Source: Tepidiforma thermophila (GTDB lineage: Bacteria; Chloroflexota; Dehalococcoidia; Tepidiformales; Tepidiformaceae). From it: DNA of 64,000 nt. The position numbers and the translations under genes were made by a program. The stretch lies in the NCBI RefSeq assembly GCF_002563855.1, contig NZ_PDJQ01000001.1, forward strand, positions 248,001 through 312,000, given 5' to 3'. Of the stretch, positions 5,051 to 40,433 are shown piece by piece; position 1 is the stretch's first letter, and each line of letters opens with the position of its first letter. The notes under the pieces are model-generated. The model had not been told where the DNA came from, made no database searches, and saw nothing but the letters and a program-made list of their open reading frames with translations.

Positions 5051-5334
5051 GGGAGGAGGGAGGAGGGAGCCCCGCCCGGCCTCGCCGCTGCCCCGAGGGA
5101 GGAGGGAGGAGGGGGCCCCGCAGCTGCCCTTGCCGCCGCCCTGAGGGAGGAGGGAGCCCCGCCCGACCTCGGTGCCGCCCCGAGGGAGCTGGGAGCTGGG
5201 AGCTGGGAGCTGGGAGCTGGGAGCTGGGAGCTGGGAGCTGGGAGCGAGTGTGGCCGGCGCTTTCGGCCTGTCAAGCTTCAAGCTCCCAGCTTCCAGCTGG
5301 GGGGACGGGTGGCCGGCTGGCGGCGGCGCACCCC
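5051..5334. repeat. GA-rich intergenic DNA with about nine copies of GGGAGCT
   Basis: Directly after the recQ stop come GGGAGGAGGGAGCCCCGCCC segments like those upstream of recQ, then an unbroken run of GGGAGCT heptamers at about 5184-5245 (close to nine copies), then AGCTTCAAGCTCCCAGCTTCC, partly inverted. No gene is credible here. The G-runs could form quadruplexes on the plus strand. Confidence 0.85.
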
Positions 5335-5868: not shown

Positions 5869-5905
5869 AGGGAGAGGGTAGCAGGTGCGCTGCGGGCCGC
5901 CGGGC

Positions 5906-5911
5906 TAGACT
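5906..5911 (+). promoter_or_regulatory. -10 element for the alpha/beta hydrolase, leaderless
   Basis: TAGACT ends seven bases before the ATG at 5919. There is no Shine-Dalgarno sequence between them, so the transcript should start at the initiation codon. Confidence 0.5.
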
Positions 5912-5918
5912 GTTCGCT

Positions 5919-6818: not shown

Positions 6819-6833
6819 CCGGGCGGAAGGGGC

Positions 6834-6839
6834 TACAAT
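6834..6839 (+). promoter_or_regulatory. -10 element for dapB, leaderless
   Basis: TACAAT ends six bases before the GTG at 6846, which places the transcription start at the first codon. There is no Shine-Dalgarno sequence. Confidence 0.6.
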
Positions 6840-6845
6840 CCGGCC

Positions 6846-11447: not shown

Positions 11448-11637
11448 GCTGCGTTCCGGCCTCCTGGGAGAAACGGGATAGCTTGAGCCGTGCCAGCGGA
11501 CTGGACCGGGGCTGACTCGATCTGGACCGCCGTGCGCCCCGAGTCTTACACCCAATCGCGACATCCGTTGCCGTACAGCGAAAGTTTGGTGGACGGCGCG
11601 GGCCGAAATCCATAGGAATTCCGTGAAAATTTGCGAC

Positions 11638-13395
11638 TCAGGCGCGGCGGCGGGCGAGGGCCAGGAGCCCAAGGCCGGAGGCGACGAGGAACAGGCCGGC
11701 CGTGAGCGGCCAGCCGGAGTGACCTGCGGCGGAAGCCCCGCTGCCGGTGGCGGGCGGACGTGGCGTGGAGCCGGGTGCCGAGGCGCCGGCGATGGTGGTC
11801 ACGAACGGAGCTGGCGACGGGCTGGGTGATGCCGTGGGCTGCTCAATCGGCGCCGGCGGGGCGGGCGTCGCGGGCGGGGCAGGGGTTGCGGGCGGGGCTG
11901 GCGGGGTGGGAGGCGGGGGCGGGGGCACGCAGCGCGGGTCGGCCGGGTCGACGCAGGGCGGGTTGAAGTCGCGAATGTTGAGGAACTCCACCGTCACGGT
12001 TTCGCCGCCCCGCGGCTGGACCGTCTGCGTCACGAACTGCGGCGTCCAGCCGGGCTGAAGCGTCTCCGTGATGGTGTAGCAGCAGCCGATCGCCGGCGGA
12101 AGGTCCGGGAATTCGACTACGCCGTCCGCGCCGGTCGTGCCGGTCAGCGGACCGACGCCGCAGCCTTCGAGGGTGAACTGCCAGCCCGCGCCGGGAGCTT
12201 CGAAGCCGACCACGTTCAGCGTCTTGAGGACACGAATGGTGACGGTGGGTGAGGCCTGGACGGGTGCACGCACCTGATCCGGGGTCGGGGTGGCGGTCGG
12301 GGTCGGGGTGGCGGTCGGGGTCGGGGTCGGGGTGGCGGTCGGGGTCGGGGTCAGGGTGGCGGTCGGGGTCGGGGTCAGGGTGGCGGTCGGGGTCGGGGTC
12401 GGGGTGGCGGTCGGGGTCGGGGTCAGGGTGGCGGTCGGGGTCGGGGTGGCGGTCGGGGTCGGGGTCGGGGTGGCGGTCGGGGTCGGGGTCGGGGTGGCGG
12501 TCGGGGTCGGGGTCAGGGTGGCGGTCGGGGTCGGGGTCGGGGTGGCGGTCGGGGTCGGGGTCGGGGTGGCGGTCGGGGTCGGGGTCGGGGTGGCGGTCGG
12601 GGTCGGGGTCGGGGGATCGTAGGCAACCCGGACGCAAATGACCGTCCGCTGACCGGCCTGAATTGCGAAGGTCGGCGCAGCTGCATTCCAGGAGGCTGCG
12701 TCCCCGGGTGGGCAGGCGGGCGAGGTTCCGTACGACCCGGCGGCCCAGCCAGTGGCGCTCCAGCCCGCCGGCAGTGTCGACGTCGCCAGGGCGTAACTTC
12801 CGGCAGCGAGGCCAACGGGCGCACCGAACGAGCCAACCGGGGCGCTCCAGCTGGCGACAGCGGTTGCACCCTGGTTGGAAGTTCCCGAGATGACGGCTGG
12901 CTCCGTCGGACTTGCTGATGCAGGGTCGAGCGCAGCGCCGACGATAAGGACGCCGCCGGTGAAGGTATTTCGGACGCAGACTTTCTGGTTACCGGTCCCG
13001 GGAGGGATGGCGCCCGAGGTGCCGATGTAGCCGCTCGCCGGGCAGGGATCGGTGGTTCGTGAAAGCACTTTATAGCCACCGAGGGTCCAGCCAGACGGCG
13101 GGGTTTCTTCGGTCACGATGTGCTCGAGGTTCTGCTGAACATTGAAGTCCTGGAAGAGCTGGCCAATCGACACCGACCAGGACGCGTCGGTACCGGAGCC
13201 GCCGCCGTTGGTGATGGTGCCGGTGAAGGTGGCAGGCGGGGCGATACCGTAGGTATCGATGATGACCTTCTCGACGCGAATGGTCCGGGTTGCAGTCGTG
13301 GCCCCGGCTCCGGTGGCCATGGCGGTGATGAGGATGGCGAGCAGCAAGGCCGCGGCGAGGGCGGCCAGCGAGGGACGTGGAGGCACCGGGCGCAC
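11638..13395 (-). CDS. Secreted surface protein with long Thr-Pro repeat stalk, paralogue of the 9825-11447 protein
   Basis: A 585-residue exported protein. It begins with a signal peptide (hydrophobic [20 protein letters not shown]), then about 230 residues with [20 protein letters not shown] and a fairly Cys-poor, Trp-containing beta-rich region, then about 110 residues of TPTPTATP repeats, then the same prealbumin-like domain, second Pro-rich stalk and PPATGSG-helix-ALARRRA anchor as its neighbour. The start is a GTG at 13395; no strong Shine-Dalgarno sequence is seen, so a start some codons later is possible. The 3' part (11638 to about 12240) closely matches 9825 to about 10440 in DNA. 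It is the last gene before the CRISPR array. Confidence 0.8.
12283..12612. repeat. Short tandem repeat encoding Thr-Pro stalk
   Basis: Plus-strand units of GGTGGCGGTCGGGGTCGG, with extra GGGGTC or GGGTCA insertions, repeat for about 330 bp inside the surface-protein gene. On the coding (minus) strand they spell TPTPTA and variants. Such arrays vary in length between strains by slippage, so the stalk length is probably variable. Confidence 0.9.
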
Positions 13396-13798
13396 TCCTG
13401 GCTGAGAGTCCGCTCTCGAGCCGGTCGCCGCTCACGACACCGCCTGGTACCCAGCCTTTGGGCGCCAACCCGGAAGCGGCGGGATTGTGGGGAGAGGGGC
13501 TGGAGGGTGTCAAGGGGGTTGCGGGGCGGAGACGGGCAACTGGCATTCCCGGAATTGCGATGTTGCATCTCCGGCGACGGTTAGGACGGACTGGATCTTA
13601 GCCAGGCAACGCGCCGGGCGGGGGCCCAGAGGGTCTGCTTACACACCGCGGCCTAACTGCTAGGCATATGAGGAATGGGGCTTGGACCGGACGAGAGGGC
13701 TGCCGGGGAGTCGCACACTCCGTTTGCCCACAACGGCACAGCGAGCGTCTCGTTCGGTAGGTACCCGAACGGCCGGTGCCAAAACCGAGGAGCGCTCC
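13396..13798. other. Gap between surface-protein gene and distal end of CRISPR array
   Basis: About 400 bases with no convincing gene. Short open frames on both strands have no recognisable features. It must contain the promoter for the surface-protein gene on the minus strand, but I see no clear -35/-10 pair. It is taken to be the leader-distal side of the array. Confidence 0.6.
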
Positions 13799-16700
13799 CC
13801 CTCAATGAAGCCACCATCTATTGATGGCGGAAACCGCTGGGCCGAGTCGATGCCCCGCACTTCGCCGAACAGCCCTCAATGAAGCCACCATCTGTTGATG
13901 GTGGAAACCGCTGGGCAGGCGTTCGCACGTGGCAGGGAGGAAGCAAGGCCCTCAATGAAGCCACCATCTGTTGATGGTGGAAACCGTCACTATCGGCGGC
14001 ACGATGTACACTCCTCGCGTCCCCTCAATGAAGCCACCATCTGTTGATGGTGGAAACCCCGTGGCCCCGCCCGGCGGCGCCCCGTACGTCAGCAGCCCTC
14101 AATGAAGCCACCATCTGTTGATGGTGGAAACCGACATCGGTGGCGCCGACTTGGACACCGGCAATGACCGCCCCTCAATGAAGCCACCATCTGTTGATGG
14201 TGGAAACGCCAGCACCTCCATCGCCTGGGGCACCTCAGAGGCTCTTCAATGAAGCCACCACCTGTTGATGGTGGAAACATTTCGTTGATGGTCAGGATGC
14301 CAGCAGTGCGCGCCCCCACAATGAAGCCACCATCTGTTGATGGTGGAAACGAGTTGTTGGCGCCGTAGCGTTTCGCGCGAGCCTGCCCTCAATGAAGCCA
14401 CCATCTGTTGATGGTGGAAACGCCCACTCGGCATCAGACAGGCGGCAGAGGCGCTCGATCCCTCAATGAAGCCACCATCTGTTGATGGTGGAAACTGACC
14501 CGACCACGTGGGTGGCCGTCATCCACGCGCCCCTCAATGAAGCCACCATCTTTTGATGGTGGACACAAGGGTGGCCTGCGGTCGACCATGACGAACGCGA
14601 TCCCTCAATGAAGCCACGATCTGTTGATGGTGAAAACCCACACGGGCCCTTCATCTTCCCCGTCGTGTACGCGCCCTCAATGAAGCCACCATCTGTTGAT
14701 GGTGGAAACCAAACATCGTGTCGCCGAGACCGACGTTGTACCGGTACCCTCAATGAAGCCACCATCTGTTGATGGTGGAAACGAGAAGTACGAGTTTGTG
14801 CCGAAGGGGCTTGACGGCCCCTCAATGAAGCCACCATCTGTTGATGGTGGAAACGACCGCCCACGCCGCCGCGAGCCCTGATGGCCCGGCGCCCCCTCAA
14901 TGAAGCCACCATCTGTTGATGGTGGAAACGACCGCCCACGCCGCCGCGAGCCCTGATGGCCCGGCGCCCCCTCAATGAAGCCACCATCTGTTGATGGTGG
15001 AAACCGCTGCGCGGCCGCCTTTTCGCCATCGTGTTGGAGAACGCCCTCAATGAAGCCACCATCTGTTGATGGTGGAAACGGCGGCGCCGCCGTCGAACCC
15101 GCGCGTCAACATCATCATCCCTCAATGAAGCCACCATCTGTTGATGGTGGAAACGGTCGCATCGCAAACGGGCGCGCGAAACCTACAGGGCCCTCAATGA
15201 AGCCACCATCTGTTGATGGTGAAAACTTTACGGGTTCGCCGTCATTGAACGGCTTCTCCTGGACCCTCAATGAAGCCACCATCTGTTGATGGTGGAAACC
15301 TTTTCCGGGAAATCGGCTCATCCCTTGAGGGCAAGAACCCTCAATGAAGCCACCATCTGTTGATGGTGGAAACCGGCTGCAAAGCGGTCGCGATCATTCC
15401 AGAGGGAGCAAGCTCCCCTCAATGAAGCCACCATCTGTTGATGGTGGAAACTCGAATGCGAACGGCTGCTTTCTGCATCCTGCTTATAGCCCTCAATGAA
15501 GCCACCATCTGTTGATGGTGGAAACTGGGGACCCTGCATACCGGGCACTCAGCCTTAATAGACCCCTCAATGAAGCCACCCTCTGTTGATGGTGAAAACA
15601 TCATGCGGTCATGGCCGAATCGCTAGCGGGCGCAACCTCAATGAAGCCACCATCTGTTGATGGTGGAAACCCGGACGGCAGGCCCGTGAGCGTCACCGAG
15701 TACGGCCCCTCAATGAAGCCACCATCTGTTGATGGTGGAAACCAGCGTCTCCGCGTCCCGCGGCGAACGTCCGACAACCCCCCTCAATGAAGCCACCATC
15801 TGTTGATGGTGGAAACTCCCCGCATCCCCGAGCGGCACCAGCAGCCTGACCCCTCAATGAAGCCACCATCTGTTGATGGTGGAAACGCCAGTTTGCGCGC
15901 GCGGCCGCGGCCGCCTGTTCGGCCCCCTCAATGAAGCCACCATCTGCTGATGGTGGAAACAGCCGCCCGGCTTCACGCGTACCTTACAAACTGAAGAGCC
16001 CTCAATGAAGCCACCATCTGTTGATGGTGGAAACTACCGCCTTCGGCGGCGCTTTCGGCAAGAGGCTTGGTCCCTCAATGAAGCCACCATCTGTTGATGG
16101 CGGAAACGGATCGCTTCCAGATTGTGATCCCATCGCCACACCACCCTCAATGAAGCCACCATCTGTTGATGGTGGAAACGAGCAGGTGCAGCTTGCAAGG
16201 CTGGCAATGGACCAGCGCCCTCAATGAAGCCACCATCTGTTGATGGTGGAAACCAGCCAGATGGCTGTGGGCTTGCCATCGCGGCGCTGGGCCCCTCAAT
16301 GAAGCCACCATCTGTTGATGGTGGAAACCTCAGGAGCCCGCGTGCGTGAGCTGGCCGGCCTTCTCCTCCCTCAATGAAGCCACCATCTGTTGATGGTGGA
16401 AACGGCGCTCGTCGAGCCGGGATGAGCACGGACGAGTACGTCCCTCAATGAAGCCACCATCTGTTGATGGTGGAAACTCGTATGTCGTGATCTGCACGGT
16501 GAAGCGCCGTGTGGCCCTCAATGAAGCCACCATCTGTTGATGGTGGAAACGCACGGCCACAACGTGATCCTGGGGGTGGGCAGCGTCCCTCAATGAAGCC
16601 ACCATCTGTTGATGGTGGAAACGCACGGCCACAACGTGATCCTGGGGGTGGGCAGCGTCCCTCAATGAAGCCACCATCTGTTGATGGTGGAAACCCGGCT

Positions 16701-19700
16701 GGTTGAGGGGGTTCCAGCGGCGCGGCATTTACCCTCAATGAAGCCACCATCTGTTGATGGTGGAAACACCGCGAGGACGCGGAGCGGCTGACCATCCGGA
16801 CCGCCCCCTCAATCAAGCCACCATCTGTTGATGGTGGAAACGAGCATGGCGGCAGGGTCTGCCATCGCGCAGGACATCGCCCTCAATGAAGCCACCATCT
16901 GTTGATGGTGGAAACCCGCGCCAGCCGTAGCAGCCTTGAACGACTGTTCGAGCCCTCAATGAAGCCACCATCTGTTAATGGTGGAAACTAAAGGGCGCGC
17001 GACGGCCGAACGACCCAGGCGAGCGCGACCCTCAATGAAGCCACCATCTGTTGATGGTGGAAACGGCAGCCTCGTGCGCTACAAAGGCGGCAAGCCGCGG
17101 ACCCCTCAATGAAGCCACCATCTGTTGATGGTGGAAACAGCTGGGCCATTTGGTCATTTCGTCGTCGAGCCCCGCGTCCCCTCAATGAAGCCACCATCTG
17201 TTGATGGTGGAAACCAGCCGCGGCGCCTCGGCCAGGGCCTCGGCGACGGAGCCCCCTCAATGAAGCCACCATCTGTTGATGGTGGAAACCTGACCTGCCC
17301 GCCGGGGAGTTCAAAGACCGGATCCACCCTCAATGAAGCCACCATCTGTTGATGGTGGAAACGCCAACCAGCGCGGCGAACCCCGGCCCCAGATCACCCC
17401 TCAATGAAGCCACCATCTGTTGATGGTGGCAACGATGTCGTCATGGTTCCTCATGGTCAGGTATCGGTGACCTCAATGAAGCCACCATCTGTTGATGGTG
17501 GAAACTGCCGGAAAACGTCCCATCCACGCCGGATAGCGTGCCGGTCCCTCAATGAAGCCACCATCTGTTGATGGTGGAAACCTCCCGCCCGGACGGCAAC
17601 CTGTCCCCGCGCACCGTTTCCCTCAATGAAGCCACCATCTGTTGGTGGTGGAAACTCGGGCAGCTGCGGACGAGGACCGTTTGGGAGCGCCGACCCTCAA
17701 TGAAGCCACCATCTGTTGATGGTCGAAACGGCAGTGAGTCCGGCAGCGATGATGGCTGCGGGCGGCCCTCAATGAAGCTACCATCTGTTGATGGTGGAAA
17801 CAAGTACTGCGCGGTTGCTGCGCTGGTCGCAGCGAAATCCTCCCTCAATGAAGCCACCCTCTGTTGATGGTGGAAACCCGCATCGATAGTCACGATTAGT
17901 TCAGGAATAGTGCAGACCCTCAATGAAGCCACCATCTGTTGATGGTGGAAACCTGTTGCCATGGCAGCGAGAGCTCATCAATGAGCTGTTCCCCTCAATG
18001 AAGCCACCATCTGTTGATGGTGAAAACAGGTTGTAGGTGGCAAAGGAAGCCGCCGAACCCATGATCCCCTCAATGAAGCCACCATCTGTTGATGTTGGAA
18101 ACTGGCAGCCGTACGCTCGGGGTAAGCCGATGACCGACCGCCCTCAAGGAAGCCACCATCTGTTGATGGTGGAAACTTCCGGGCCTGGGCGGCGAACATG
18201 CTGGAGTCCCTGATCCCTCAATGAAGCCACCATCTGTTGATGGTGAAAACTTGCTGCTTTTGCGCGCGCGGGCGAGACGGCCGAATTCGCCCTCAATGAA
18301 GCCACCATCTGTTGATGGTGGAAACGAGAAGATCATCGCCAAGACCCTGCCGCAGGCCCCGCCCCCTCAATGAAGCCACCATCTGTTGATGGTGGAAACG
18401 ACTTTTTCGAGGGGTGTATCTCCCTCCTCGGAACCCCCTCAATGAAGCCACCATCTGTTGATGGTGGAAACCGTGGAGGTCTACGAGGGCGAGTAGGCCG
18501 GAAGGCCTCCCTCAATGAAGCCACCAACTGTTGATGGTGGAAACGCCGAAAGTGCGGCCCTGCATATCGGTTCGGCGATTCTCCCTCAATGAAGCCACCA
18601 TCTGTTGATGGTGGAAACTTGGTCGAGAAAACCGCCGTTGATTTGTACAATAACGTCCCCTCAATGAAGCCACCATCTGTTGATGGTGGAAACGGGGCCC
18701 TGTGCCGATCGTTCGGGCTTGAAGCTGCACCCTCAATGAAGCCACCATCTGTTGATGGTGGAAACCCGCCTGTTTCAGGCAATCATCGGCAACTGAGGGG
18801 GAATGATCCCTCAATGAAGCCACCATCTGTTGATGGTGGAAACGTTTACGGCAGGGTCCAGGTGATCCTAGAGTATTCTTCCCTCAATGAAGCCACCATC
18901 TGTTGATGGTGGAAACGGGCTCGGGCGACGAGAAGGTGGCAGTGGTGGCTGGTGCCCTCAATGAAGCCACCATCTGTTGATGGTGGAAACGGCCTACCGT
19001 GCAGGGGGTGTACGGTGCCTAAGGCCCCTCAATGAAGCCACCATCTGTTGATGGTGGAAACGCGGGGGCGTGGCGAACCCGGACGAGAAGCTGACCGCCC
19101 TCAATGAAGCCACCATCTGTTGATGGTGGAAACGTGGATCAGGCGGACAGGGGGGGCGTGCTCCCTCCATGGCCCCTCAATGAAGCCACCATCTGTTGAT
19201 GGTGGAAACGCGGGGGCGTGGCGAACCCGGACGAGAAGCTGACCGCCCTCAATGAAGCCACCATCTGTTGATGGTGGAAACGTGGATCAGGCGGACAGGG
19301 GGGGCGTGCTCCCTCCATGGCCCCTCAATGAAGCCACCATCTGTTGATGGTGGAAACTCTGCCGCCAAACCGCCTACGGCCGAGACGGCGGTTTTCCCTC
19401 AATGAAGCCACCATCTGTTGATGGTGGAAACGACTGAGGATCTGCATCTGCCGGTGCTGCAGGTCGACCCTCAATGAAGCCACCATCTGTTGATGGTGGA
19501 AACCAGCGGTTGAGCGGCACACGGCTCACTAGACCGACGGCGGCCCTCAATGAAGCCACCATCTGTTGATGGTGGAAACTGGATGGCCCCCTCGCCTGCC
19601 AGCGACTGGCAGATGCGCCCTCAATGAAGCCACCATCTGTTGATGGTGGAAACCGCCGCGAGAGCCTGGGTTGCCGGGAGAACCATTACCCTCAATGAAG

Positions 19701-20602
19701 CCACCATCTGTTGATGGTGGAAACCCGAAATTTGCTACGGCGGGTTACTACGGCGGGTTGATCCCTCAATGAAGCCACCATCTGTTGATGGTGGAAACGG
19801 CGCGGCGTGCGGTATCTGTTCTTTGCTGCCGCCCCTCAATGAAGCCACCATCTGTTGATGGTGGAAACATTTTGATGCCGCCGCGCTTAGAGACCTTGCT
19901 CTTCTTGCCCTCAATGAAGCCACCATCTGTTGATGGTGGAAACTGCTGTGTTCCCGGGGGACACGATTGAGATCGATGCCCCTCAATGAAGCCACCATCT
20001 GTTGATGGTGGAAACTCGACGTCTTTCTCGCCAGGATGGAGCTGCTCGCCGACCCTCAATGAAGCCACCATCTGTTGATGGTGGAAACCGCGGGCAGGGC
20101 CGCCCGCCAGACCAACGAGCTCGCCGTCCCCTCAATGAAGCCACCATCTGTTGATGGTGGAAACGCGAGCCGAGATGCGAAAGCCGCGATAATTGGTTGG
20201 CGCCCTCAATGAAGCCACCATCTGTTGATGGTGGAAACGTGACCTTTGCCTTAGGCACCGGTGAACCCTCCGATCCCCTCAATGAAGCCACCATCTGTTG
20301 ATGGTGGAAACCACTCCGTGCTTCCTGATGGGAGGATCGTCGTGATGAACCCTCAATGAAGCCACCATCTGTTGATGGTGGAAACCCGACAGGCTGGCCC
20401 GGCACCTGCGCTCGCTCGGGTACCCTCAATGAAGCCACCATCTGTTGATGGTGGAAACGAGCACGACGGCATGTGCGGCCGCCATTTCTGGAGGGCCCTC
20501 AATGAAGCCACCATCTGTTGATGGTGGAAACTCGCTGGAACCGAGTATTAGCCACCCGATTTCTCCCCCTCAATGAAGCCACCATCTGTTGATGGTGGAA
20601 AC
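13799..20602 (-). CRISPR. CRISPR array, 93 repeats of 36 bp and 92 spacers, type I-G
   Basis: I counted 93 repeats by eye. On the plus strand each reads CCCTCAATGAAG, stem CCACCATC, loop TGTT, stem GATGGTGG, AAAC. Spacers are about 33-42 bases, with a repeat-to-repeat distance near 73.5. Repeats from 18583 to 20602 are all perfect. Point mutants occur only from 13799 to about 18545 (for example the first repeat, 14531, 14602, 15564, 16806, 17620, 17693, 18067, 18141, 18509). Decay marks the old, leader-distal end, so the leader is at the 20.6-kb side next to cas2 and the array is transcribed on the minus strand. In that orientation the segment after the hairpin ends in ATTGAGGG, which resembles the usual crRNA 5' tag AUUGAAAC. 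Some spacers are duplicated (14856/14930, 16551/16623, and a two-spacer block at 19062/19209). Confidence 0.97.
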
Positions 20603-31062: not shown

Positions 31063-31539
31063 TTACGGGTTTCCGGACGCGCGGCGGAGTTTTTCGGGAA
31101 AGACGTCGACCCAGGCCTTTGTGAGCTTTTCGGGTACGACGAGGTAGGTCAGGCTGCTCGGGCGATACCGGTCGACGGGCGTGTACTCGAGCCCGAGCAG
31201 GACGCAGCCATCGGGGACAGGCACCGGCTCCTTGAACACGAAGCCGCCCTGGTCCCAGTGGTAATAGAGGAATCGGACCTTGCGGAACGGCTTTCTTGCC
31301 TCGAAGAGGGTATACCCGCCCGGAGGGGCGCGAAGTTCGGGTATCGGGTTCCCTCCCGAGCGCACGAAGGCGAACAGGAGCGGCAGGGTGACGGGCACGC
31401 TGCAGCCGACATAGGTGGTCGGCACGATGCCCTCGGTGTCGGTGAAGGCGACCGTTGGCGAGTAGACCCCTCCCAGGTGCGGGTCGTCGCGCGGCCACTG
31501 GACCGGCCGCCTGATGAGCTCGAGAAAATCAGCGTCCAT
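31063..31539 (-). CDS. Unrecognised 158-residue protein
   Basis: I do not recognise this protein. It starts MDADFLELIRRPVQWPRDDP and contains YSPTVAFTDTEGIVPTTYVG, LPLLFAFVRSGGNPIPEL and LTYLVVPEKLTKAWVDVFPE. It looks like a soluble beta-rich protein with no obvious catalytic motif. The ATG at 31539 has a GAAGGAAG Shine-Dalgarno sequence eight bases upstream. It is the middle of three small genes on the cas strand, 117 bases after the 156-residue gene. Its clean reading frame, strong ribosome-binding site and codon use argue that it is real. Confidence 0.7.
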   Translation of the reverse strand: MDADFLELIRRPVQWPRDDPHLGGVYSPTVAFTDTEGIVPTTYVGCSVPVTLPLLFAFVRSGGNPIPELRAPPGGYTLFEARKPFRKVRFLYYHWDQGGFVFKEPVPVPDGCVLLGLEYTPVDRYRPSSLTYLVVPEKLTKAWVDVFPEKLRRASGNP

Positions 31540-31656
31540 CGCGTTCTTCCTTCGCCGGGTGGCCCCCGTGGGCTGCAGAGCCCGCACCGAGGGGCCCTGG
31601 ACCGGGCACTGCTGCAAGAGCTGACTGTCCCGGGCGGTGCCCGAGGCGGGCCGGCG

Positions 31657-32127
31657 TTACGGGCGGCGGTCGCCCGCGACGCCCTTGACATCCAGGTTTC
31701 GAGAAAGGGCGCCGGCGGCCTGCATCCGCTCGACCCAGCGAATGCAGCCCGGGACGGGCTGGGGGAACCAGGGCTCTCCGGGCCGGGTGCCGGGCCGGTT
31801 GCGGTACCAGCCGGAGCCCGGTTTGCCGCCAGCCACCAGGACCTCGATGTCGGTGGTACAGGTGCCAGCCGGGTAGTGCAGGGTGAGCGTGTAAACGGCC
31901 TGGAAGTCCGGCACGCGGAACCGGATGCCGGCAGCGATGAGCCGATTTTGGTCGTCGACCTCGATGAACGGCTCTGCCGTGTAGCCGACGGTTCCAGATG
32001 CTGCCCGTTCGAGGGCGCGAACGGCGAACCAAAGGCCATCTGGAGTGACGTACCCGTGTACCCTTCGTTCGGCGCGCGGGACGAGGCGGGACCGCAGGCG
32101 CGCAAGCAGATGGGCGGCGACGTTCAC
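31657..32127 (-). CDS. Unrecognised 156-residue protein
   Basis: I do not recognise this protein. It starts MNVAAHLLARLRSRLVPRAE and has AEPFIEVDDQNRLIAAGIRF and FQAVYTLTLHYPAGTCTTDI, which suggest a beta-rich fold. The C-terminus (GCIRWVERMQAAGALSRNLD) is helical. The GTG at 32127 is chosen on an AAGGAGG Shine-Dalgarno sequence six bases upstream. It is the first of three small minus-strand genes that precede the cas operon and is divergent from the large helicase gene, with 283 bases between them containing an inverted repeat at 32256. Confidence 0.7.
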   Translation of the reverse strand: MNVAAHLLARLRSRLVPRAERRVHGYVTPDGLWFAVRALERAASGTVGYTAEPFIEVDDQNRLIAAGIRFRVPDFQAVYTLTLHYPAGTCTTDIEVLVAGGKPGSGWYRNRPGTRPGEPWFPQPVPGCIRWVERMQAAGALSRNLDVKGVAGDRRP

Positions 32128-32255
32128 GTGTTGCCTCCTTGACGTCTGCCCCGGGGAGCGGAGATGACGGGCCGCGACGGGAGGTTCGCTGAGCCGGGCG
32201 GGCAGCCGCGGCGGGATGTCTGCGCACGAGCCGATAGCATTCTCGCATACGGCCG

Positions 32256-32270
32256 CGACACCTCCTGTCG
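32256..32270. promoter_or_regulatory. Inverted repeat CGACA-N5-TGTCG in divergent intergenic region
   Basis: CGACACCTCCTGTCG lies between the start codons of the 156-residue gene (minus) and the large helicase (plus), where it could act on both. It is one of five such sites in the window. Confidence 0.4.
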
Positions 32271-32410
32271 TTTGCGCGCAGGGATTGTCGGAGAAAATTC
32301 CGCGGGCGGGGAGCCGGGGTTTTGGGGGGCGGTGGGCACACATTTCTGGCCAGCCGAGCAGCGAAGTTGCTACTATCCCGTCCCAGGCTTGCTTTCGAGG
32401 CCCCAGAAGG

Positions 32411-35400
32411 ATGAACCCGACGTGTCCGCAGTGCGGAGCCCGCATGGTCGTAAGGACCGCGAGGTCGGGCCCTAGCGCTGGCGCGCAGTTCTGGGGCTGC
32501 ACGCGCTATCCGGAATGCCGAGGAACCCGCCCGTATGTGGACGAGAGCAACGGGGAGCGCGCGCAGACCCCGGCGTCGTCCCAAATGCGCCCCCGGGAAC
32601 AGAACAGGCCGTTCGGCGAGGCCGGAGGAGCGCGTCGGGGAGCCACTGATGACAGCCTGCTCGACGAACCCCTGGACGACCAGGACGATGTCGATCCCGA
32701 GGACCTTCCACACGAGGTCGAGCTCGAGCCACTTCGTCCGAACCTCCAGGTCCGACTGTTCCAGGCCGTCGGTCTGCCTCGAGAATGGGTCGAACGGATT
32801 CACGACGCCAGCGTGCCTCCGCGCCTGCGGCGCGCCGCCGCACAGTGGCGGCTCGACTGGCCGTTGCGGTCTTCGCCTGACACGGTCAGCCGGTTCGCGA
32901 GCGTCATCAGCGTGGTGGAGAAGATCCTTACGCGTGGGGCCCTGACAATCGTCGACCCGCAGGTTGAAGAAGCTCTGCCGGTGCCCGACCGAGAGACAAT
33001 CAGCAGCGAGGACATCAGGAAGACGGTTGAACTTCTTGCGGCCGACCCCACAATTCCACCGTCCTGGCCGCTGCACACGGAGGTGTGGGGCAAGGCGAAG
33101 CCCTTCGCGGAATGGTTCGACAACGGGGGCTTCGGGAGGCTCGGCTGGACGCTCGTTCCGGGGATGACGCTGAAGACGACCTTCCAGGAGGCCGGAGAGC
33201 GAACAAGCCACCACCTGCCCATCGTGCTTGCGCACCCCTCGGTCGAGCGCCTGACCGCGGTGACGTTGCCCGGCGATGGTTCAGCCGCTGCACCGACGAC
33301 GTCCGCATGGGCTCAGTGGCGAGAGATGGAGGTATTCCCGCTGCGTCCCGGTACGGACTACCACGGTCCGGACCCGGCTCTCGACCACCTGGCTACGCTC
33401 CTGGCAAAGGCGTCCGTGCCCAAGCCCACGCTGCCGGTCGTGCATCTCAGGCTGTCGCGCTTCGCACACCAGGTACAGATTGCGCTCCTCGAGGCATTTC
33501 GTGGCGGACTGCTTCCCGACGACGCGCCATGGAAGGTAGCCATTCAGCCACCTGAACGTCTGGTTCGAGAGCTTGAACCGGCAGAGCTGGAGCTGGTGCT
33601 CGCGCGAGCGGTGGAAGGTTTCGCGGAGCTGCTGGTGCGGGTCGCCTCACTTCACGGCGTTCCCCTGGGACGACCGGAAGTCAGCACTGCTGTCTTGCCA
33701 TCTTCACCTGCCGGGCCGGCCCAGGTGCTCATACGCGCCGGATTTTCGGGGCGAGTCCCGGTGCTCACGGGGGCTGCCGAGTTCGTGATTCACGACCTCC
33801 CGCTCGGACTCAATGTGGCACCGCCCGTCACGGCCGCACCACCGGTCCGCAGGCAGAATCCGCAGCGCGAAGACGCTGAGTGGATGCTGAACTACGTCTT
33901 CCGGAAGCCGTCGTTCTGGGAGGGCCAGTGGGAGACGGTCCGGCGCACCCTGGAGGGGAAGGACACCCTCGTGCTCCTGCCGACCGGTGCCGGTAAGTCC
34001 ATCGCCTTCCAGCTCGGCGCCATCTGCCTGCCCGGGATGTGCATCGCCGTGGCTCCGATCGTCTCACTCGTCGAGGACCAGCTGGACAACCTCGATCGGG
34101 TTGGCATCGACCGAGCCGTTGGCATAACGAGCAACATCAGCGACCGCCAGCAGCGCGAGGCGGCTGTAACGGCGGTCGGCAGGGGCTGGTACCTTTATTG
34201 TTATATCGCGCCCGAGCGGTTCCAGATTGCGTCATTCCGGGACGCGCTGCGGCAGGCGACAGCGACTGTGCCGGTGTGCTCGGTTGCCATCGACGAGGCC
34301 CACTGCGTTTCGGAGTGGGGGCATGACTTCCGTACGGCCTATCTCAACCTCGGCAGAATCGCCCGCGACTATTGCAAGTACGGAGACTTCGTCCCGCCGC
34401 TTATCGGCCTGACAGGAACCGCCAGCTATATCGTGTTGCGTGACGTCCAGCGCCAGCTGGGGATCCTCGACTACGACGCGCTTGTTACTCCGACCAGTTT
34501 TGACCGGAGAGAGCTTGCGTTCCACATCATGACCTGCAGGTCAGAAGAGAAGGCCGACAGGTTGATCGGCATTATGAACAGTTTGCCATCAAGGTTTGGA
34601 CTGGCATCAAATGGATTCTTCCAGCCACGAGGATCCAATACGACGTCGGGTCTTGTTTTTTGTCCGTACATCAACGGGAACTTCGGGATCTTGCGCTTTC
34701 AAAAAGAGATCCAAGAGAAGCTGCAGATTCACTCGGACGTTTACGCCGGGGGTCTCTCCAAACGAAAGAAGCGCCTGAGCGCGCACCGTTTCAAGCGGAA
34801 CGAGGTCCCGTTACTCGTATGCACGAAGGCCTTCGGGATGGGGATCGATAAGCCGAACATCAGATACACCATCCACACCGGGCTCCCTGCGTCGATCGAG
34901 TCGTACTACCAGGAGGCAGGGCGCGCCGGGCGAGACCGGCAGCGGGCCCTCTCGTTTATTGTGCTCTCGGATGACCGGCCCCAGGCGAACCGGCAGCTCC
35001 TTGACCCGAGCACGGATGTGACCGTACTGGCCCGGCACATCCAGCAGCGACGGTACGACGGCACCGACGATGACGTGACCCGCGCACTCTGGTTCCACGT
35101 CCAGGCGTTCCGGGGCAAGGAGCGGGACCTGGAGGTAACAAAGGCCACCCTGGGCTTACTCGGCGAGACCGGACAGGCCCGCGACGTGGTCATTGGCTGG
35201 CGCATGCCCCGAGGCCCGGGCGGGCAGGGCCTCATGCAGCAGCCGGGCCGCGGACAGGATGACGATGAAACTCAGAAGGCCATAGAAAAAGCGCTGCATC
35301 GCCTGGTGGTCATCGGTGTCGTCGCTGACTATACCGTCGACTACGTGCGGCGGGAGTTTCACGTCAGGCTGGCAGACACGGGCTACGAAGACGTGCGCGA

Positions 35401-36145
35401 ACATCTCCTGGCCTATATTGGTGATTACCAGGCCGGGCTGGTGCCCGCCTATGAGGCACGGGTAAACGCGCTGATGGGCCGTCGCTGGCGCGACTACCTG
35501 GTCGACGTATGTTCGCTACTGATCGACTTTATCTACGAGCATATTGAGCGCGCCCGGCGGCGCTCGCTGCGGGAGATGCTCGAGGCAGCGAGCCTGGGCG
35601 ACGGCGAGCGTCTTCGCGAACGCATTCTGAACTACCTGACGACGACGGAGTACGACGACTTCCTCGTAGGCATCATCCAGTCCACTACGGTGGCTGACGC
35701 CATGCAGCATGCTGAAGAGCTCCTCGACGTCGTCGTCTCGCCGAACGATGCGGAGCGCATCCGGGGGGCAGTGGCCCGGTATCTTACGTCCTACCCGGAT
35801 GTCCCGGTACTGCTGGCATTGCGGGCTGTTACCGAGGGGCTCTCCAGAGACCCGGACCGGGAGGATATTCGCCAGAACCTGACCGCAGCGATGAACTTCG
35901 CGAGGGACCGGTACGGCTACACGCCGGACGAACTCGTCGGGCTGGCCGGCCTTGCGATCAGGGCGATGGGTCGGCGGCCCGAGGTGGCACGCGACGCTGC
36001 CCTCGATCTCGTCGCGGCCATGCAGGGAGACGTTTCTTTTCTCCGGGGCCTGGCACGGGCAGTGCCTGCCTTTGCTGCCGTGCCGTACGCTATGCTCTCG
36101 ACGCGCTTGCTGGTTGAGCGCATTGACCGGGTGCTCGGGGTTTGA
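32411..36145 (+). CDS. Large RecQ-like DNA helicase with N-terminal topoisomerase-type zinc finger
   Basis: A 1244-residue protein. Residues 1-42 form a topoisomerase C4-type zinc finger: MNPTCPQCGARMVVRTA, then FWGCTRYPECRGTR. About 450 residues of unknown fold follow, with VERIHDASVPPRLRRAAAQW and FELLVRVASLHGVPLGRPE-like helical parts. The RecQ-type SF2 helicase starts near 500: Walker A LLPTGAGKSIAFQ (about 522), DEAH in AIDEAHCVSEWGHDFRTAYL (about 626), LTGTASYIVLRD, FGMGIDKPNIRYTIHTGLPA and QEAGRAGRDRQRALSF (about 834). About 380 further residues are not recognised. The ATG at 32411 begins at the zinc finger. The gene ends five bases before the coiled-coil gene. Such oversized RecQ-like helicases occur in defence clusters (DpdF and the Shango helicase are examples); which family this belongs to I cannot say. 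A stretch near 34560-34760 looks less GC-rich than its surroundings. Confidence 0.85.
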   Translation: MNPTCPQCGARMVVRTARSGPSAGAQFWGCTRYPECRGTRPYVDESNGERAQTPASSQMRPREQNRPFGEAGGARRGATDDSLLDEPLDDQDDVDPEDLPHEVELEPLRPNLQVRLFQAVGLPREWVERIHDASVPPRLRRAAAQWRLDWPLRSSPDTVSRFASVISVVEKILTRGALTIVDPQVEEALPVPDRETISSEDIRKTVELLAADPTIPPSWPLHTEVWGKAKPFAEWFDNGGFGRLGWTLVPGMTLKTTFQEAGERTSHHLPIVLAHPSVERLTAVTLPGDGSAAAPTTSAWAQWREMEVFPLRPGTDYHGPDPALDHLATLLAKASVPKPTLPVVHLRLSRFAHQVQIALLEAFRGGLLPDDAPWKVAIQPPERLVRELEPAELELVLARAVEGFAELLVRVASLHGVPLGRPEVSTAVLPSSPAGPAQVLIRAGFSGRVPVLTGAAEFVIHDLPLGLNVAPPVTAAPPVRRQNPQREDAEWMLNYVFRKPSFWEGQWETVRRTLEGKDTLVLLPTGAGKSIAFQLGAICLPGMCIAVAPIVSLVEDQLDNLDRVGIDRAVGITSNISDRQQREAAVTAVGRGWYLYCYIAPERFQIASFRDALRQATATVPVCSVAIDEAHCVSEWGHDFRTAYLNLGRIARDYCKYGDFVPPLIGLTGTASYIVLRDVQRQLGILDYDALVTPTSFDRRELAFHIMTCRSEEKADRLIGIMNSLPSRFGLASNGFFQPRGSNTTSGLVFCPYINGNFGILRFQKEIQEKLQIHSDVYAGGLSKRKKRLSAHRFKRNEVPLLVCTKAFGMGIDKPNIRYTIHTGLPASIESYYQEAGRAGRDRQRALSFIVLSDDRPQANRQLLDPSTDVTVLARHIQQRRYDGTDDDVTRALWFHVQAFRGKERDLEVTKATLGLLGETGQARDVVIGWRMPRGPGGQGLMQQPGRGQDDDETQKAIEKALHRLVVIGVVADYTVDYVRREFHVRLADTGYEDVREHLLAYIGDYQAGLVPAYEARVNALMGRRWRDYLVDVCSLLIDFIYEHIERARRRSLREMLEAASLGDGERLRERILNYLTTTEYDDFLVGIIQSTTVADAMQHAEELLDVVVSPNDAERIRGAVARYLTSYPDVPVLLALRAVTEGLSRDPDREDIRQNLTAAMNFARDRYGYTPDELVGLAGLAIRAMGRRPEVARDAALDLVAAMQGDVSFLRGLARAVPAFAAVPYAMLSTRLLVERIDRVLGV

Positions 36146-36150
36146 ACGGC

Positions 36151-36813
36151 ATGAGCATTGAAGAAGAGCTATCGAAGTTCGTCAGCCTCGAGCAGGTGGT
36201 GGCCGAGGCGGCTGAACGGCTTGAACGGCTTCGGGCGGAGACAGAGCACTATAGCGAGGCCGCAACCGCCCTAACGGACGTCGCCCAGGAGCTTCGCGGT
36301 CAGATTGGCACACTCACCGATGTGGTGGTCGCCATCGGCCGTCTTATCGAAGCGCTGAGGGAGGCAGATACGGCGGCGCTCCTCGCGGGCCAGCATGACA
36401 TCGCACGTCGTGTGGAGCTGCTTGGTGCCGAACTGACCCGGGGAATAGGTGTCTTCGATGAGGCATCGCGTGCAGCCGCCGAGCAGGCATCCAGCCTGGG
36501 GCTCGCGCTCGAACGCTACGAGGGCCAGCTCGCCGGGCTCGCGGCAGCTGTCGCAAATGCGAGGAGTGAGACTGTCGCGCGCCTGGACCGGCTGTCCGAG
36601 GAGCAGGAGGGGCGCCTCGCGCAAACGCGTGACGCGCTCCAGGCATCAGTGGAGGCGCAGCACCGGCAGCTGGACGCCGGGATCAGACAGGTGGCCGAGC
36701 TGGTCCGGCAGGCAAATTCACAGGTTCGCAAGGTCTGGACGACGCTGCTGGCCGGATTGCTCGTGGTCGGGGCGATATCGGCGGGCGCCCTGGTCGGGGT
36801 TTTCACCCGGTAG
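36151..36813 (+). CDS. Tail-anchored coiled-coil protein
   Basis: A 220-residue protein that is nearly all amphipathic helix (MSIEEELSKFVSLEQVVAEA onward), with heptad-like spacing up to about residue 195, followed by one hydrophobic helix (VWTTLLAGLLVVGAISAGAL) and a short FTR tail. It should sit in the membrane by its C-terminus with the coiled coil in the cytoplasm; the helical part resembles methyl-accepting-protein or SMC-hinge type coils only in a general way. The ATG lies five bases after the helicase stop, so the two are co-transcribed and the product is probably a partner of the helicase. Function unknown. Confidence 0.75.
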   Translation: MSIEEELSKFVSLEQVVAEAAERLERLRAETEHYSEAATALTDVAQELRGQIGTLTDVVVAIGRLIEALREADTAALLAGQHDIARRVELLGAELTRGIGVFDEASRAAAEQASSLGLALERYEGQLAGLAAAVANARSETVARLDRLSEEQEGRLAQTRDALQASVEAQHRQLDAGIRQVAELVRQANSQVRKVWTTLLAGLLVVGAISAGALVGVFTR

Positions 36814-36920
36814 GGCGGGTTCGGGACCAGGGTGCGAAGTGACGCGGGGGCGAGGCCGAGCGGGCAGGTCGGTCGCCTGTCCGGGAATGCTGCGCCTTGA
36901 GAAATCGGCAGGAGGATCCC

Positions 36921-37481
36921 GTGCCGTTTTATGCACGTTCGACCGGACCGAACGGCCAATGGCAGCCGCTTCGCGACCACCTGCTCGCCGTTGGCGAGCT
37001 GGCGGCGAGGTTTGCGGCCGAAGCCGGGCTCGATCCTGAGCCTGCTCGCTGGGCCGGACTTCTGCACGACCTGGGGAAATACTCCGAGGAGTTCCAGGAG
37101 CACCGGCTGCGACGCCGCGACTGGGTGGTCGAACACGCTGCGCACGGGGCGGCGTGGGCGGTGGAGCACAACAGTGTTGAAGCAGCATTTGCGGTCGCGG
37201 GGCACCATTCCGGGCTTCCGAATAAAGCTACGCTCGTCGAACTCCGGCATCGGCCGGAGCGGTGTCCGGTCGATGTGGGAACCGTGATGGAGCGGGCACG
37301 ACGGTTCGCGGCACTTGCCGAAAGCGAGGGTGTGTTTACGGGTGCTCCGCCGGCGACGCCAGTGCCGTTGTCGTACTCGACAGGGCTGGTAAAAGGCTCC
37401 TGCCATGGCCGTGTCAGACACCTCACCGTTCCCTTCGCTGCCGGTACAGCACGACTCTGGCGCCAGCTCAGCAATGTCTGA
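36921..37481 (+). pseudogene. HD-domain (Cas3''-like) fragment of a second cas3
   Basis: A frame of 186 codons. Residues 1 to about 130 have the HD nuclease signature of Cas3 proteins with N-terminal HD domains: MPFYARSTGPNGQWQPLRDH, the LLHDLGKYSEEFQ metal site, EHAAHGAAWAVEH and GHHSGLPNK. After about residue 130 (PPATPVPLSYSTG) similarity stops and the frame runs into unrelated sequence facing another broken gene. The GTG at 36921 has a perfect AGGAGG six bases upstream, so the start is intact. The helicase part of the protein is missing. It differs from the complete Cas3 at 23925, whose HD domain is C-terminal, so it comes from another CRISPR type, perhaps I-C. A complete standalone Cas3'' is less likely because the C-terminus looks random. 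Confidence 0.65.
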
Positions 37482-39647
37482 TGCCCCATATGTGCGGTGG
37501 ATACCTCTTCAATAGCAATTGAGGTATCGACCGTGGCGACCGTGGCTGGGCGCCCAACTGCGATTCCAGATGCAGAGAGGAGCTGCAGCTCGAAGTCATA
37601 GCTCGAAGCGGTGCCGTTGCGAAGGTGTCCAGAAACTCACCGACAGCGAATCTCGCATGATTTTGCTGTTTCGCCCTTGCTCGCCTGCTTTGGAGGAGCC
37701 TCCCCGGGCGCTGAACGAGCCGCAATTCGACGTCATAAGACGGGGGAACCCTGGCGAGCAGAACTGTGGCCTTCGTCGAAGCCAGGTCGTCAAGGCCGAA
37801 CCGGAGAGGGGTGTTTTCGCCTGGTGACTCCAAGCCGAGACCAGCCCAGCGCCATTGCGCGACGGCCAGGCGAATTGTCGCCGTCGTCTCCCGGCCGGTC
37901 GCGATGTCGCGGACGGTAAACGGGATTTTCCCGTTCCGGTTGCGGTCGTACAGCCGCCACCCGCCCGGAGGCGGTTCGACGAAATCACCTTCTTCGAGGA
38001 CGCTGATGCCGTCTCTGGTAGTGATGTCGACCGTTGAAACTGCCAGGTTTGGCCCTGCGACACCAGGATGCTCGTCGACCTGGAAGTCCATGTCAGGGAG
38101 CAGGTCAAGGATAAATTCCGCGCTGCGGCCGAGCGGCCCATTGACGCGGAGGTGCCACCTGCCAACGTCCCGGCCGGGGATCAGGTCCTCGAGGTGGAGT
38201 CGCACCCGACCGCCCACCAGTGACTCGGGCGAGAGTTCGGCAGCCGACAGCCTTCCCTGTTCCATGCCATCGCCGGAACGGACTGAGACTGTCCAGTCAG
38301 ACAGGTACTCGCCGACGTCACGACTCCCGGGAGGGCCGGGGAGGACGAGTGTGGGGAGTTTCGTCTCAAACGCCAGCGCGGCGTCGCCGTAGGGCTCCAG
38401 GCAGGCCGGCAGATCCGGGCAGTCCAGGGTCGGCTCTGCATCCGCGTCGACGAAGAGATCGTATGTTTTGCCCTGGATGGTCAATGCGATGTACGGCACA
38501 TCGTCGGGAAACTCGTAGGACCTCGCGACGATGGACCGCCATCGTGAGGCCGGCTCGCCAAGGTCCTCGACCGGGGCGATTTCTCCGTCAGGGCCCTTCA
38601 CGCGCATCCCATCGGGGGCGACGAGGAAGAAGTTCCGGGTGGAAAGGGTCCGGGTCCCGCTGATGGCTTTCAACGATTTCCCATGGAAGAGCAGGAACGG
38701 GCGCTCCGGCGATAGTCCCTCAAAGCTGCGAGACGTCAGCAACCCTTTTCAGTAAAGGCGAATAGCCGGATCGACGAGAAGGGCTCTTCGATCAGGAGCT
38801 CTTCGTACGGCGCTGACCTCCTCCAGCTTTCCTTCCAGGGCACATCGAACTGCGACCCCCCGGAGAGCTGTACCCTCCAGCGGACTAGCGGGCTGTCGAT
38901 ATAGGGGACTCGAAGCAGCATGCGAACGAATTCCGGGTCGAACACGAGGGAAGGGGCCGTCCATCTCTGACGAACCCTCCTCGGCTACTGTTCGCGTCCC
39001 ACAATCCATGCTATTACGTGGTCGACGAACCAGGAGGGGAGACCGGTATCTTCGATTCCATAAACAAGATCCATGGTGCGATGGACAACGTTTTCGGCCA
39101 CGCGCCCGCCATAGACGACGAACCTGTACACCGGAATTGGGATCCCGGCGTGATTTTCGATAAGCCGCTCGCGAATCTCCCAAAAGTCATATCCGTAACG
39201 TTGCGGGTCGATAATGCTGGGCCAGATGACGTGCTCCATGAAGGATGGAACCAGCGCCCGCGGAACCATGGCATGGGCGAAAATTGGCGTGACGTAAGGT
39301 AATGCACCTTCCTCAACGAGCTGTCGGAACGTTGGCAGATTATTCCGCTCAAGATAATCTGCGAACCACTGACCAAGTTCCGGCTGATTTATCTGGTAGG
39401 TTGGTGTATCTAAAAGCGCTCGAACTTTGGGCCAGTATTCATTTCCATCATATCGAAATTTGGCGACATTAACGAGTAACGCTGCCAGGCAGTGCGGGTA
39501 TTGCCTCTGCACGATATGAGTTGGCAGGCGACGTAGCTGATTGGCGATGTCAGTGAGCTCAGCTTCCTCGAGCGGAACTTCACCGATGAGGGTGTGCCGT
39601 GGAATTTCCTGGCTCAGACGCCGTTCGTATTCGGACAGGGTGGCCAC
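37468..39647 (-). pseudogene. Large unrecognised gene broken by an in-frame stop and a frameshift
   Basis: The first part (39647 to 38985, GTG start, MATLSEYERRLSQEIPRHTL to HVIAWIVGREQ) ends at TAG. The same frame continues without another stop from PRRVRQRWTAPSLVFDPEFV to IRLFAFTEKGC and ends at about 38736. From the AAAAGGG run there, the -1 frame carries on as LLTSRSFEGLSPERPFLLFH and stays coding-like to about 37600, after which the C-terminus (to 37468) looks random where it meets the cas3 fragment. Restored, the product would be about 680 residues. FVVYGGRVAENVVHRTMDLV is a notable block. A TATAAT at 39699-39704 is a possible promoter. It could instead be two genes, the second starting with the GTG at 38945 and carrying one frameshift. 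I do not recognise the family. A less GC-rich patch lies at 39360-39480. Confidence 0.6.
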
Positions 39648-39698
39648 GCTACCGGCTCCAGAGTCGACCGCACCGGGGACAGGCCCCGATTGGCACGG

Positions 39699-39704
39699 CA
39701 TTAT
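39699..39704 (-). promoter_or_regulatory. -10 element for the broken gene
   Basis: TATAAT on the minus strand, about 50 bases before the GTG at 39647. An inverted repeat (39732-39747) lies just upstream, where a regulator could block or recruit polymerase. Confidence 0.45.
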
Positions 39705-39731
39705 AGCGTGTTGGCTACCGGCTTGCGATAG

Positions 39732-39759
39732 CGACAGCAATCTGTCGCCAATTGGCGAC
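39732..39759. promoter_or_regulatory. Inverted repeats CGACA-N6-TGTCG and GTCGCCAATTGGCGAC
   Basis: Two overlapping palindromes: CGACA at 39732 facing TGTCG ending at 39747, and the 16-bp perfect palindrome GTCGCCAATTGGCGAC at 39744-39759. They lie upstream of the TATAAT of the broken gene, a normal position for an operator. Confidence 0.45.
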
Positions 39760-40031
39760 GGAACGGGCGGGGAAGGTGGTTGCACAGGCGGTTCAGGCTG
39801 CGGCGCCATGGCCCCGGGCCCGAAGCGCACGCTGCCAGCCGGTCGCGGCGCCGGAAGTTTTCGGTCCGTGCGGCGACTTGCCCGAAGCGACAGCTGCGAT
39901 GCTGTGGCCCGCCCCACAGGCCGGCCGGGCGATTGGGCGACGGGGGAGGGACGCTGCGGGGCTGCACGAGGGCGTCCCCGGCCAGGCTGGCTTCCTGCGC
40001 CGGCCAGCGCTTCGGGCTGGCCGCGGGAAGG
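39760..40031. other. Gap between defence region and tRNA-Thr
   Basis: No convincing gene. Long open frames in several frames have no recognisable features and look composition-driven. This marks the right edge of the defence region. Confidence 0.5.
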
Positions 40032-40060
40032 TTCACCGAAGCGGGGCGAAGCGGTAGGAT
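40032..40060 (+). promoter_or_regulatory. Promoter for tRNA-Thr
   Basis: TTCACC at 40032-40037, a 17-base spacer, and TAGGAT at 40055-40060, ending 12 bases before the tRNA 5' end. Confidence 0.5.
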
Positions 40061-40072
40061 TAGCGAAGGCGA

Positions 40073-40148
40073 GCCTCGATAGCTCAGCTGGTAGAGCGAG
40101 CGATTCGTAATCGCTAGGTCCAGGGTTCGAATCCCTGTCGAGGCTCCA
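40073..40148 (+). tRNA. tRNA-Thr (anticodon CGT)
   Basis: A 76-base cloverleaf with encoded CCA. The acceptor stem is GCCTCGA paired with TCGAGGC, the D arm is AGCTCAGCTGGTAGAGC, the anticodon stem is AGCGA/TCGCT around loop TTCGTAA (anticodon CGT, reading ACG), and the T arm is CAGGGTTCGAATCCCTG. The discriminator base is T followed by CCA. The defence region lies on its 5' side. I find no copy of the tRNA 3' end elsewhere in the window that would mark an attachment site. Confidence 0.97.
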
Positions 40149-40433
40149 GTTCCCCTGTGTGCTGCGCGCGCGGGCGCCAATGGCAGGGTGCGAATTTTGA
40201 CCCGATTTCGGCCTCGCGTTGAGTGTTCGCGGCGAGCACCGGCCCGACGTTCTCGAACGCCTCCCACGACGTGAACCCCGGCTCTTGACCTCGCGTACCG
40301 CGGCCACTCCGCGAATTCGAACGCCCGCGCAGCGCCGCAATTCTTCACCCCGGAACCGGGCCGCGCCTTTGCGCGCCTCACGGGCAACGGAAGCAGCGCG
40401 GCAGCGATGGGCGGCCGGCAATTCGGGATTCGC
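40149..40433. other. Gap between tRNA-Thr and the riboswitch promoter
   Basis: About 285 bases with no convincing gene; open frames here have no family features. No clear terminator follows the tRNA. Confidence 0.5.

Follow-up and report, generated by a model that had tools for sequence, protein, structure and literature searches.

A long RecQ-type helicase and its coiled-coil partner form a candidate mobile two-gene conflict module in Tepidiforma and unrelated bacteria

A stretch of 64,000 nucleotides from the genome of Tepidiforma thermophila (the window; contig NZ_PDJQ01000001.1, positions 248,001 to 312,000) holds a long RecQ-type helicase gene followed directly by the gene of a small coiled-coil protein with a C-terminal membrane anchor. 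Judging from genome comparisons, the pair is demonstrably mobile as a unit. Our best reading, which we hold to be probable though with clear reservations, is that the two genes form a mobile conflict module acting against mobile elements. A more detailed version is offered tentatively, as a proposal a little more apt to fail than to hold. It describes an undescribed defence system of at least five bacterial phyla, in which a PD-(D/E)XK nuclease-RecQ helicase would be tethered at the membrane by a tail-anchored coiled coil, and in which Tepidiforma lineages would have dropped the nuclease, leaving defence to the motor. The host genome of the window (G000) comprises 2.74 Mb on one contig, and its close relatives fall within Tepidiforma.

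Loci with the long helicase were gathered by tblastn, genome scans and collection searches, which yielded 20 places in Chloroflexota, Rhodothermota, Bacteroidota, Pseudomonadota, Cyanobacteriota and viral contigs (Table 1); L040 and L041 are near copies of the enterobacterial locus L036. A coiled-coil gene stood directly after the helicase at all 20 places, overlapping it or within ~100 bp. In the window, the ATG of the partner lies 5 bases past the helicase stop, its heptads are almost continuous (heptad coverage above 60 out of 60 shuffles), and a hydrophobic helix closes the protein, in agreement with an earlier reading of this DNA made from the letters alone (the sequence-only reading), which had placed a membrane-anchored coiled coil five bases downstream of the helicase. 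A membrane helix ends 16 of the 19 complete partners, one further partner being cut by a contig end. When the same automatic test was applied to ordinary RecQ genes as a control, a tail-anchored coiled coil was found in 0 of 36 downstream open reading frames (ORFs), compared with 12 of the 16 long-helicase family members that were readable by the script. The sequence-only reading had proposed a search for the same pair in other genomes, and was to fall if helicase homologues never co-occurred with the coiled coil or all fitted a named system. The pair did recur in genomes unrelated to one another, its two genes never apart, and none of the named systems covered it.

The helicase itself had been described as a 1244-residue RecQ-like protein with a topoisomerase-type zinc finger, and the ORF, the Zn_ribbon_Top1 score and the TIGR00614 score all agree with this. 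Its motor passed the RecQ-family model TIGR00614 (262.6 bits, cut-off 219.8), and the protein scored below the housekeeping RecQ equivalog TIGR01389 (264.4 bits, cut-off 640.2). An AF2 model of residues 475-1244 matched RecQ/BLM helicases with a Z score of 24 over 387 residues and a root-mean-square deviation of 2.8. A separate, ordinary RecQ, 39% identical to the long helicase over the motor, is encoded in the same window at ~3032-4042; hence, the long helicase is not the housekeeping enzyme. The zinc ribbon is present in several relatives and absent from others. Codon positions 1, 2 and 3 of the helicase differed by 0.32, 0.27 and 0.58 between the window and L006, and on these values selection evidently acts on the protein. 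Its least constrained part was the nuclease-like stretch, with 0.55, 0.41 and 0.53.

Across 400 Chloroflexota genomes, family members matched the family profile over their full length with 889-1437 bits and ordinary RecQ proteins over the motor only, with up to 387 bits. The family is rare, occurring in 7 of these genomes. A branch with support of 100/99 in the motor tree parts all family members from ordinary RecQ. Nearest to this split lies the Thermomicrobium copy (L039), which has the coiled coil, lacks the DUF559 motif described below and was treated as an outlier. Lateral transfer is indicated by the copy on the Rhodothermus plasmid, which falls together with one from Chloroflexota (99/97). 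Phage records gave only ordinary RecQ-core matches, both for the window helicase and for its E. coli relative; IMG/VR matches besides L068-L070 covered the RecQ motor only and, where readable, the next gene was not a tail-anchored coiled coil. A rare enterobacterial operon (L036:4666-10789, L040 and L041) encodes DprA, then a 1558-aa protein with HAD, PRTase-like, DUF559 and RecQ parts, and then a tail-anchored coiled coil. Among 5426 complete E. coli genomes, 7 had this operon, four on plasmids and three on chromosomes.

The sequence-only reading had suggested that the regions flanking the motor could hold new domains. They do: a nuclease module, degenerate in the window, precedes the motor, and a winged-helix-like element and an alpha-solenoid-like array follow it. 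The modelled solenoid array is possibly the surface that binds the partner, for which it is a natural candidate. Before the motor, 12 relatives share the invariant pattern D...E-x-D...H...D...G...R, and 7 of 8 relatives passed the gathering score of DUF559 (PF04480). A profile of this N-terminal region, compared with the PDB by sequence, matched 3hrl, which is endonuclease-like (7e-9), and PvuRts1I, a restriction enzyme (0.004). The motif, the DUF559 scores and the PDB profile matches together argue that the ancestral protein was a nuclease-helicase. In the AF2 model of the window's nuclease-like domain (pTM 0.84), the elements follow one another as alpha-beta-beta-beta-alpha-beta, which is the order of the PD-(D/E)XK fold. 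The catalytic residues are gone in L006 and L007 as well as in the window, L007 keeping only the E, and helicase and partner persist in Tepidiforma despite this loss. Since the nearest relatives outside Tepidiforma (L008 and L020) keep the nuclease motif and branch just outside the Tepidiforma copies, loss of the nuclease within Tepidiforma is the simplest reading.

Movement of the pair was traced in Tepidiforma KatS3mg064 (L006), where positions 9940-14443 are absent from the sister species G000, G226 and G400, whose flanks run on continuously. This insert is exact, measures ~4.5 kb and holds only the two genes. It is bounded by perfect 43-bp direct repeats (9897-9939 and 14433-14475), the 28-bp core of which occurs once in G400 (identical), once in G000 (two mismatches) and twice in the L006 genome. 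The insert is without integrase or transposase. The window pair occupies a different site, between csb1 and tRNA-Thr. There, according to the alignment with the sister locus L031, a cassette swap placed the RecQ pair and a cut-off Cas3'' gene at the cas-tRNA site, and the likely origin of the incoming segment is a locus where a cas3 gene followed the pair. The truncated Cas3'' HD gene, located between the pair and a broken gene that faces it, had been missed in the sequence-only reading. It does not come from the local type I-G cas3 and resembles the front of a different cas operon brought with the cassette.

Table 1 Features of the pair and its surroundings in the window, and loci carrying the long helicase.
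Feature	Position or locus	Strand	Basis
RecQ-type helicase of a distinct long family	32411..36145	+	1244-aa ORF; Pfam/NCBIfam, family profile search and tree
Topoisomerase-type C4 zinc ribbon, aa 4-41 of helicase	32420..32533	+	PF01396 (Zn_ribbon_Top1) 40.4 bits, cut-off 32
Degenerate PD-(D/E)XK nuclease-like domain, aa ~218-337	33062..33421	+	Alignment with intact DUF559 domains of relatives; AF2 model; weak structural matches
RecQ helicase core, aa ~490-870	33878..35020	+	DEAD/Helicase_C (Pfam); Walker A LPTGAGKS at aa 523; AF2 model
Winged-helix-like element, aa ~950-987	35258..35371	+	AF2 secondary structure; RecQ catalytic cores with winged helix align across it
Alpha-solenoid-like helical array (helix pairs to C-terminus), aa ~1065-1242	35603..36136	+	AF2 model, pLDDT mostly 80-95
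Coiled-coil partner, 220 aa, C-terminal tail anchor	36151..36813	+	ORF, hydropathy, heptad test
C-terminal transmembrane helix of partner, aa 199-217	36745..36801	+	KD 2.37
Segment with pair and cut-off Cas3'' gene, replaced by Druantia-like genes in sister	32317..37348	.	blastn against L031 (sister G226): homology ends 32316, resumes 37349
Cas3'' HD-nuclease gene truncated at the junction; start of a cas3	36897..37348	+	TIGR01596 63 bits (cut-off 43.45); PF01966 47 bits
Truncated pseudogene, corresponding to the first gene (DruH position) of a Druantia-III-like pair	37352..39701	-	78-82% identical to 1168-aa protein adjoining DruE-like helicase in L031
Long-helicase loci, Tepidiforma or close relatives	window, L006, L007
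Long-helicase loci, other Chloroflexota	L020-L025 (n=6)
Long-helicase locus, further bacterium	L008
Long-helicase loci on plasmids	Rhodothermus L035, Salinibacter L037, Haliscomenobacter L038, Thermomicrobium L039, enterobacteria L036
Long-helicase loci, cyanobacterial phylum	L116, L117 (two genomes)
Long-helicase loci, viral contigs	L068-L070

How such a module might work can be outlined from its parts. In its ancestral form, gene 1 would have joined an N-terminal DUF559/PvuRts1I-like PD-(D/E)XK nuclease to a RecQ motor, with a winged helix and an alpha-solenoid behind it. Gene 2 encodes a small coiled coil that in most cases has its last ~20 residues as a membrane anchor. The coiled coil may bind the solenoid or the N-terminal region, and would hold or oligomerise the helicase at the inner membrane, where phage or plasmid DNA enters. 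Starting at ends or single-stranded tails, the motor would then unwind DNA that is foreign or being replicated, and most relatives would also cut this DNA with their nuclease. The window copy, whose nuclease is dead by sequence, might act by unwinding, by blocking replication or by passing DNA to another nuclease. Defence genes neighbour several of the pairs. In the window these are the type I-G cas genes and a long CRISPR array; L008 adjoins TerY with a linked kinase, and L069 a reverse transcriptase of the defence type. A CARF-HEPN gene lies near L035, and L040 and L041 have type I restriction genes nearby. As a side observation, the L006 locus contains, at 4631-7592, a BREX-like cluster of BrxC/BrxD ATP-binding genes (PF10923, PADLOC BrxD) that survives in remnants with a broken frame.

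Several observations weigh against a defence role of this kind. The motif residues conserved in the 12 relatives are replaced in the window copy, and nuclease action cannot apply there. Structural alignment of the nuclease-like domain was weak (Z 3-5, up to 5.3; model residues ~124-243), the best of these weak rows being mostly PD-(D/E)XK nucleases, among them VC1899, Bax1, Cdn1, AbaSI and Can2, and a Foldseek search of the N-terminal model against the PDB gave no match at E <= 0.001. The tail anchor is missing from 3 of the 19 complete partners (L023, L024 and L025), and some pairs stand alone among housekeeping genes of translation or respiration (L021, L023 and L039). Finally, PADLOC was run on genes taken from the Chloroflexota loci and from L008, 76 of them neighbours of the pair and 75 controls. 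In this sample the enrichment next to known defence genes, which the sequence-only reading had proposed to look for, was not clear, and specific matches came essentially from one locus, L008. That this small control comparison showed no clear enrichment, and that some pairs stand alone, weakens the defence reading but leaves it standing. Of the earlier claim that the layout is credible for phage defence, the recurrence of the pair and its distinctness from any named system stand, the anchor is not constant, and defence by the pair is a putative role.

The main rival, which we consider doubtful, is that the pair works in the manner of PsyrTA/RqlHI, as a toxin-antitoxin or abortive-infection module in which the helicase would be a genotoxic effector that its partner restrains until infection. 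Restraint would then come from the coiled coil, plus DprA in enterobacteria. In the copies of E. coli, Klebsiella and Raoultella, a DprA-like gene stands first in the operon (227 bits with the ShosA model), and the helicase carries fused HAD and PRTase-like parts; the PRTase/ShosT match of the E. coli relative is weak. The genotoxic RecQ-PRTase protein of RqlHI is kept in check by a protein resembling DprA (PMC4670107; PMC9122126), and it is the enterobacterial form of the family, with its DprA, HAD and PRTase-like parts, that links the pair to PsyrTA/RqlHI logic and makes a toxin-type mode the main rival. However, DprA is absent next to the window pair and from the annotated non-enterobacterial pairs examined, the window helicase has no PRTase match in Pfam, and most relatives have a nuclease instead of a PRTase.

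Less likely still is a selfish or accessory DNA repair or replication pair of plasmids and islands, serving for example element maintenance, with no role in defence. The occurrence of the pair on plasmids, and beside an integrase on the viral contig L070, would suit this explanation, as would its compact movement without neighbours. Yet the nuclease-helicase architecture and the patchy spread resemble those of defence genes, and the host already has the ordinary RecQ.

The sequence-only reading had joined helicase, coiled coil and broken gene into one system, a proposal that now appears very improbable. The three genes do adjoin one another between cas and tRNA, and the large gene facing the pair on the minus strand is indeed broken: relative to the L031 copy it stops prematurely near 38985, shifts frame near 38745 and again near 37622, and lacks its 3' part after residue ~784 of 1168. 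The promoter of its own that had been claimed did not materialise, with 0 sigma-70-like sites in 32000-40200 (1.2 expected by chance). At the same site, however, the sister genome G226 (L031) has the 1168-aa gene together with a DruE-like helicase (up to 326 bits, in two overlapping ORFs), no relative of the broken gene adjoins a RecQ pair at the loci examined, and the RecQ segment is precisely where homology to the sister locus breaks off. On grounds of this synteny we reject the broken gene as a third component and regard it as a relic of another system. Its relatives with open frames (1157-1238 aa) precede DruE-like helicases, which PADLOC placed in L031 and L033, with the same two-gene layout in L032 and L034. 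In size, order and helicase type they fit the DruH-DruE pair of Druantia type III, where DruH of 1132 aa and DruE of 1667 aa are encoded by overlapping genes (PMC13316683; YprA family study, PMC12458937). No PADLOC model matched the intact relatives of the broken gene, whose likeness to DruH is one of size and position. In the window, the ~1130-aa gene in DruH position followed by DruE that marks Druantia type III was not found, the gene being truncated and DruE missing.

That the helicase is the DpdF of the Dpd (7-deazapurine) system has next to no chance of being right: PADLOC DpdF models rank first for the window helicase, with one of them (374 bits) spanning the greater part of the E. coli relative, but the identity is ruled out by an NCBIfam DpdF score of 144.9 bits against a cut-off of 550, over the motor only, and by DpdA, which was over its cut-off in 0 of 7 genomes searched, the host's own included.

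The surroundings of the pair are as the sequence-only reading had them, between a cas operon and a tRNA gene. The upstream operon is of type I-G (cas3g with Cas3-extension, csb2, csb1, cas4g/cas1g and cas2), and tRNA-Thr lies at 40073. Beside the type I-G set, a long CRISPR array at 13783-20600 contains ~93 copies of a ~36-nt repeat, CCCTCAATGAAGCCACCATCTGTTGATGGTGGAAAC. Two unrecognised minus-strand ORFs (31063-32105) lie between csb1 and the helicase and gave no significant Pfam, PADLOC or NCBIfam match; the same two ORFs occur in the sister locus L031 at ~1135-2146, with 78% DNA identity across the region.

If the pair is a defence module, it would be a compact, plasmid-borne two-gene system that ties a RecQ helicase to the membrane, and it would account for plasmid pairs of a 'RecQ family helicase plus hypothetical protein' that have been overlooked or filed under DpdF. 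The Tepidiforma copies, in which the nuclease is dead and motor and partner are conserved, provide a natural test of whether unwinding alone protects, and the relatives on E. coli plasmids make the pair open to direct testing. Our literature search, which misses most subscription journals, found no description of a module of RecQ, DUF559 and coiled coil, and the pair has no name of its own there.

Compared with canonical RecQ, the long helicase shares the RecQ motor and a winged-helix-like element and matches the RecQ-family model, but it is twice as long and differs by its N-terminal nuclease module, its C-terminal solenoid and its obligate coiled-coil neighbour. PsyrTA, RqlHI and ShosTA likewise have a RecQ-type helicase, and the enterobacterial relatives also share with them a leading DprA and PRTase-like parts; in contrast, the pair has a nuclease domain and a tail-anchored coiled coil, and the window copy is without DprA or PRTase. 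DpdF is a RecQ-like helicase with a similar motor, from which the pair differs by its partner and by being without DpdA or other Dpd genes. Druantia type III is also a two-gene helicase system, and a relic of its DruH-position gene adjoins the window pair, but DruE is a YprA/DUF1998 helicase and DruH has ~1130 aa, and neither corresponds to a gene of the pair. With helicase-nuclease defence modules, most relatives share the logic of a motor joined to a PD-(D/E)XK nuclease, whereas the RecQ motor, the small tail-anchored coiled-coil partner and the inactivated nuclease of Tepidiforma set the pair apart.

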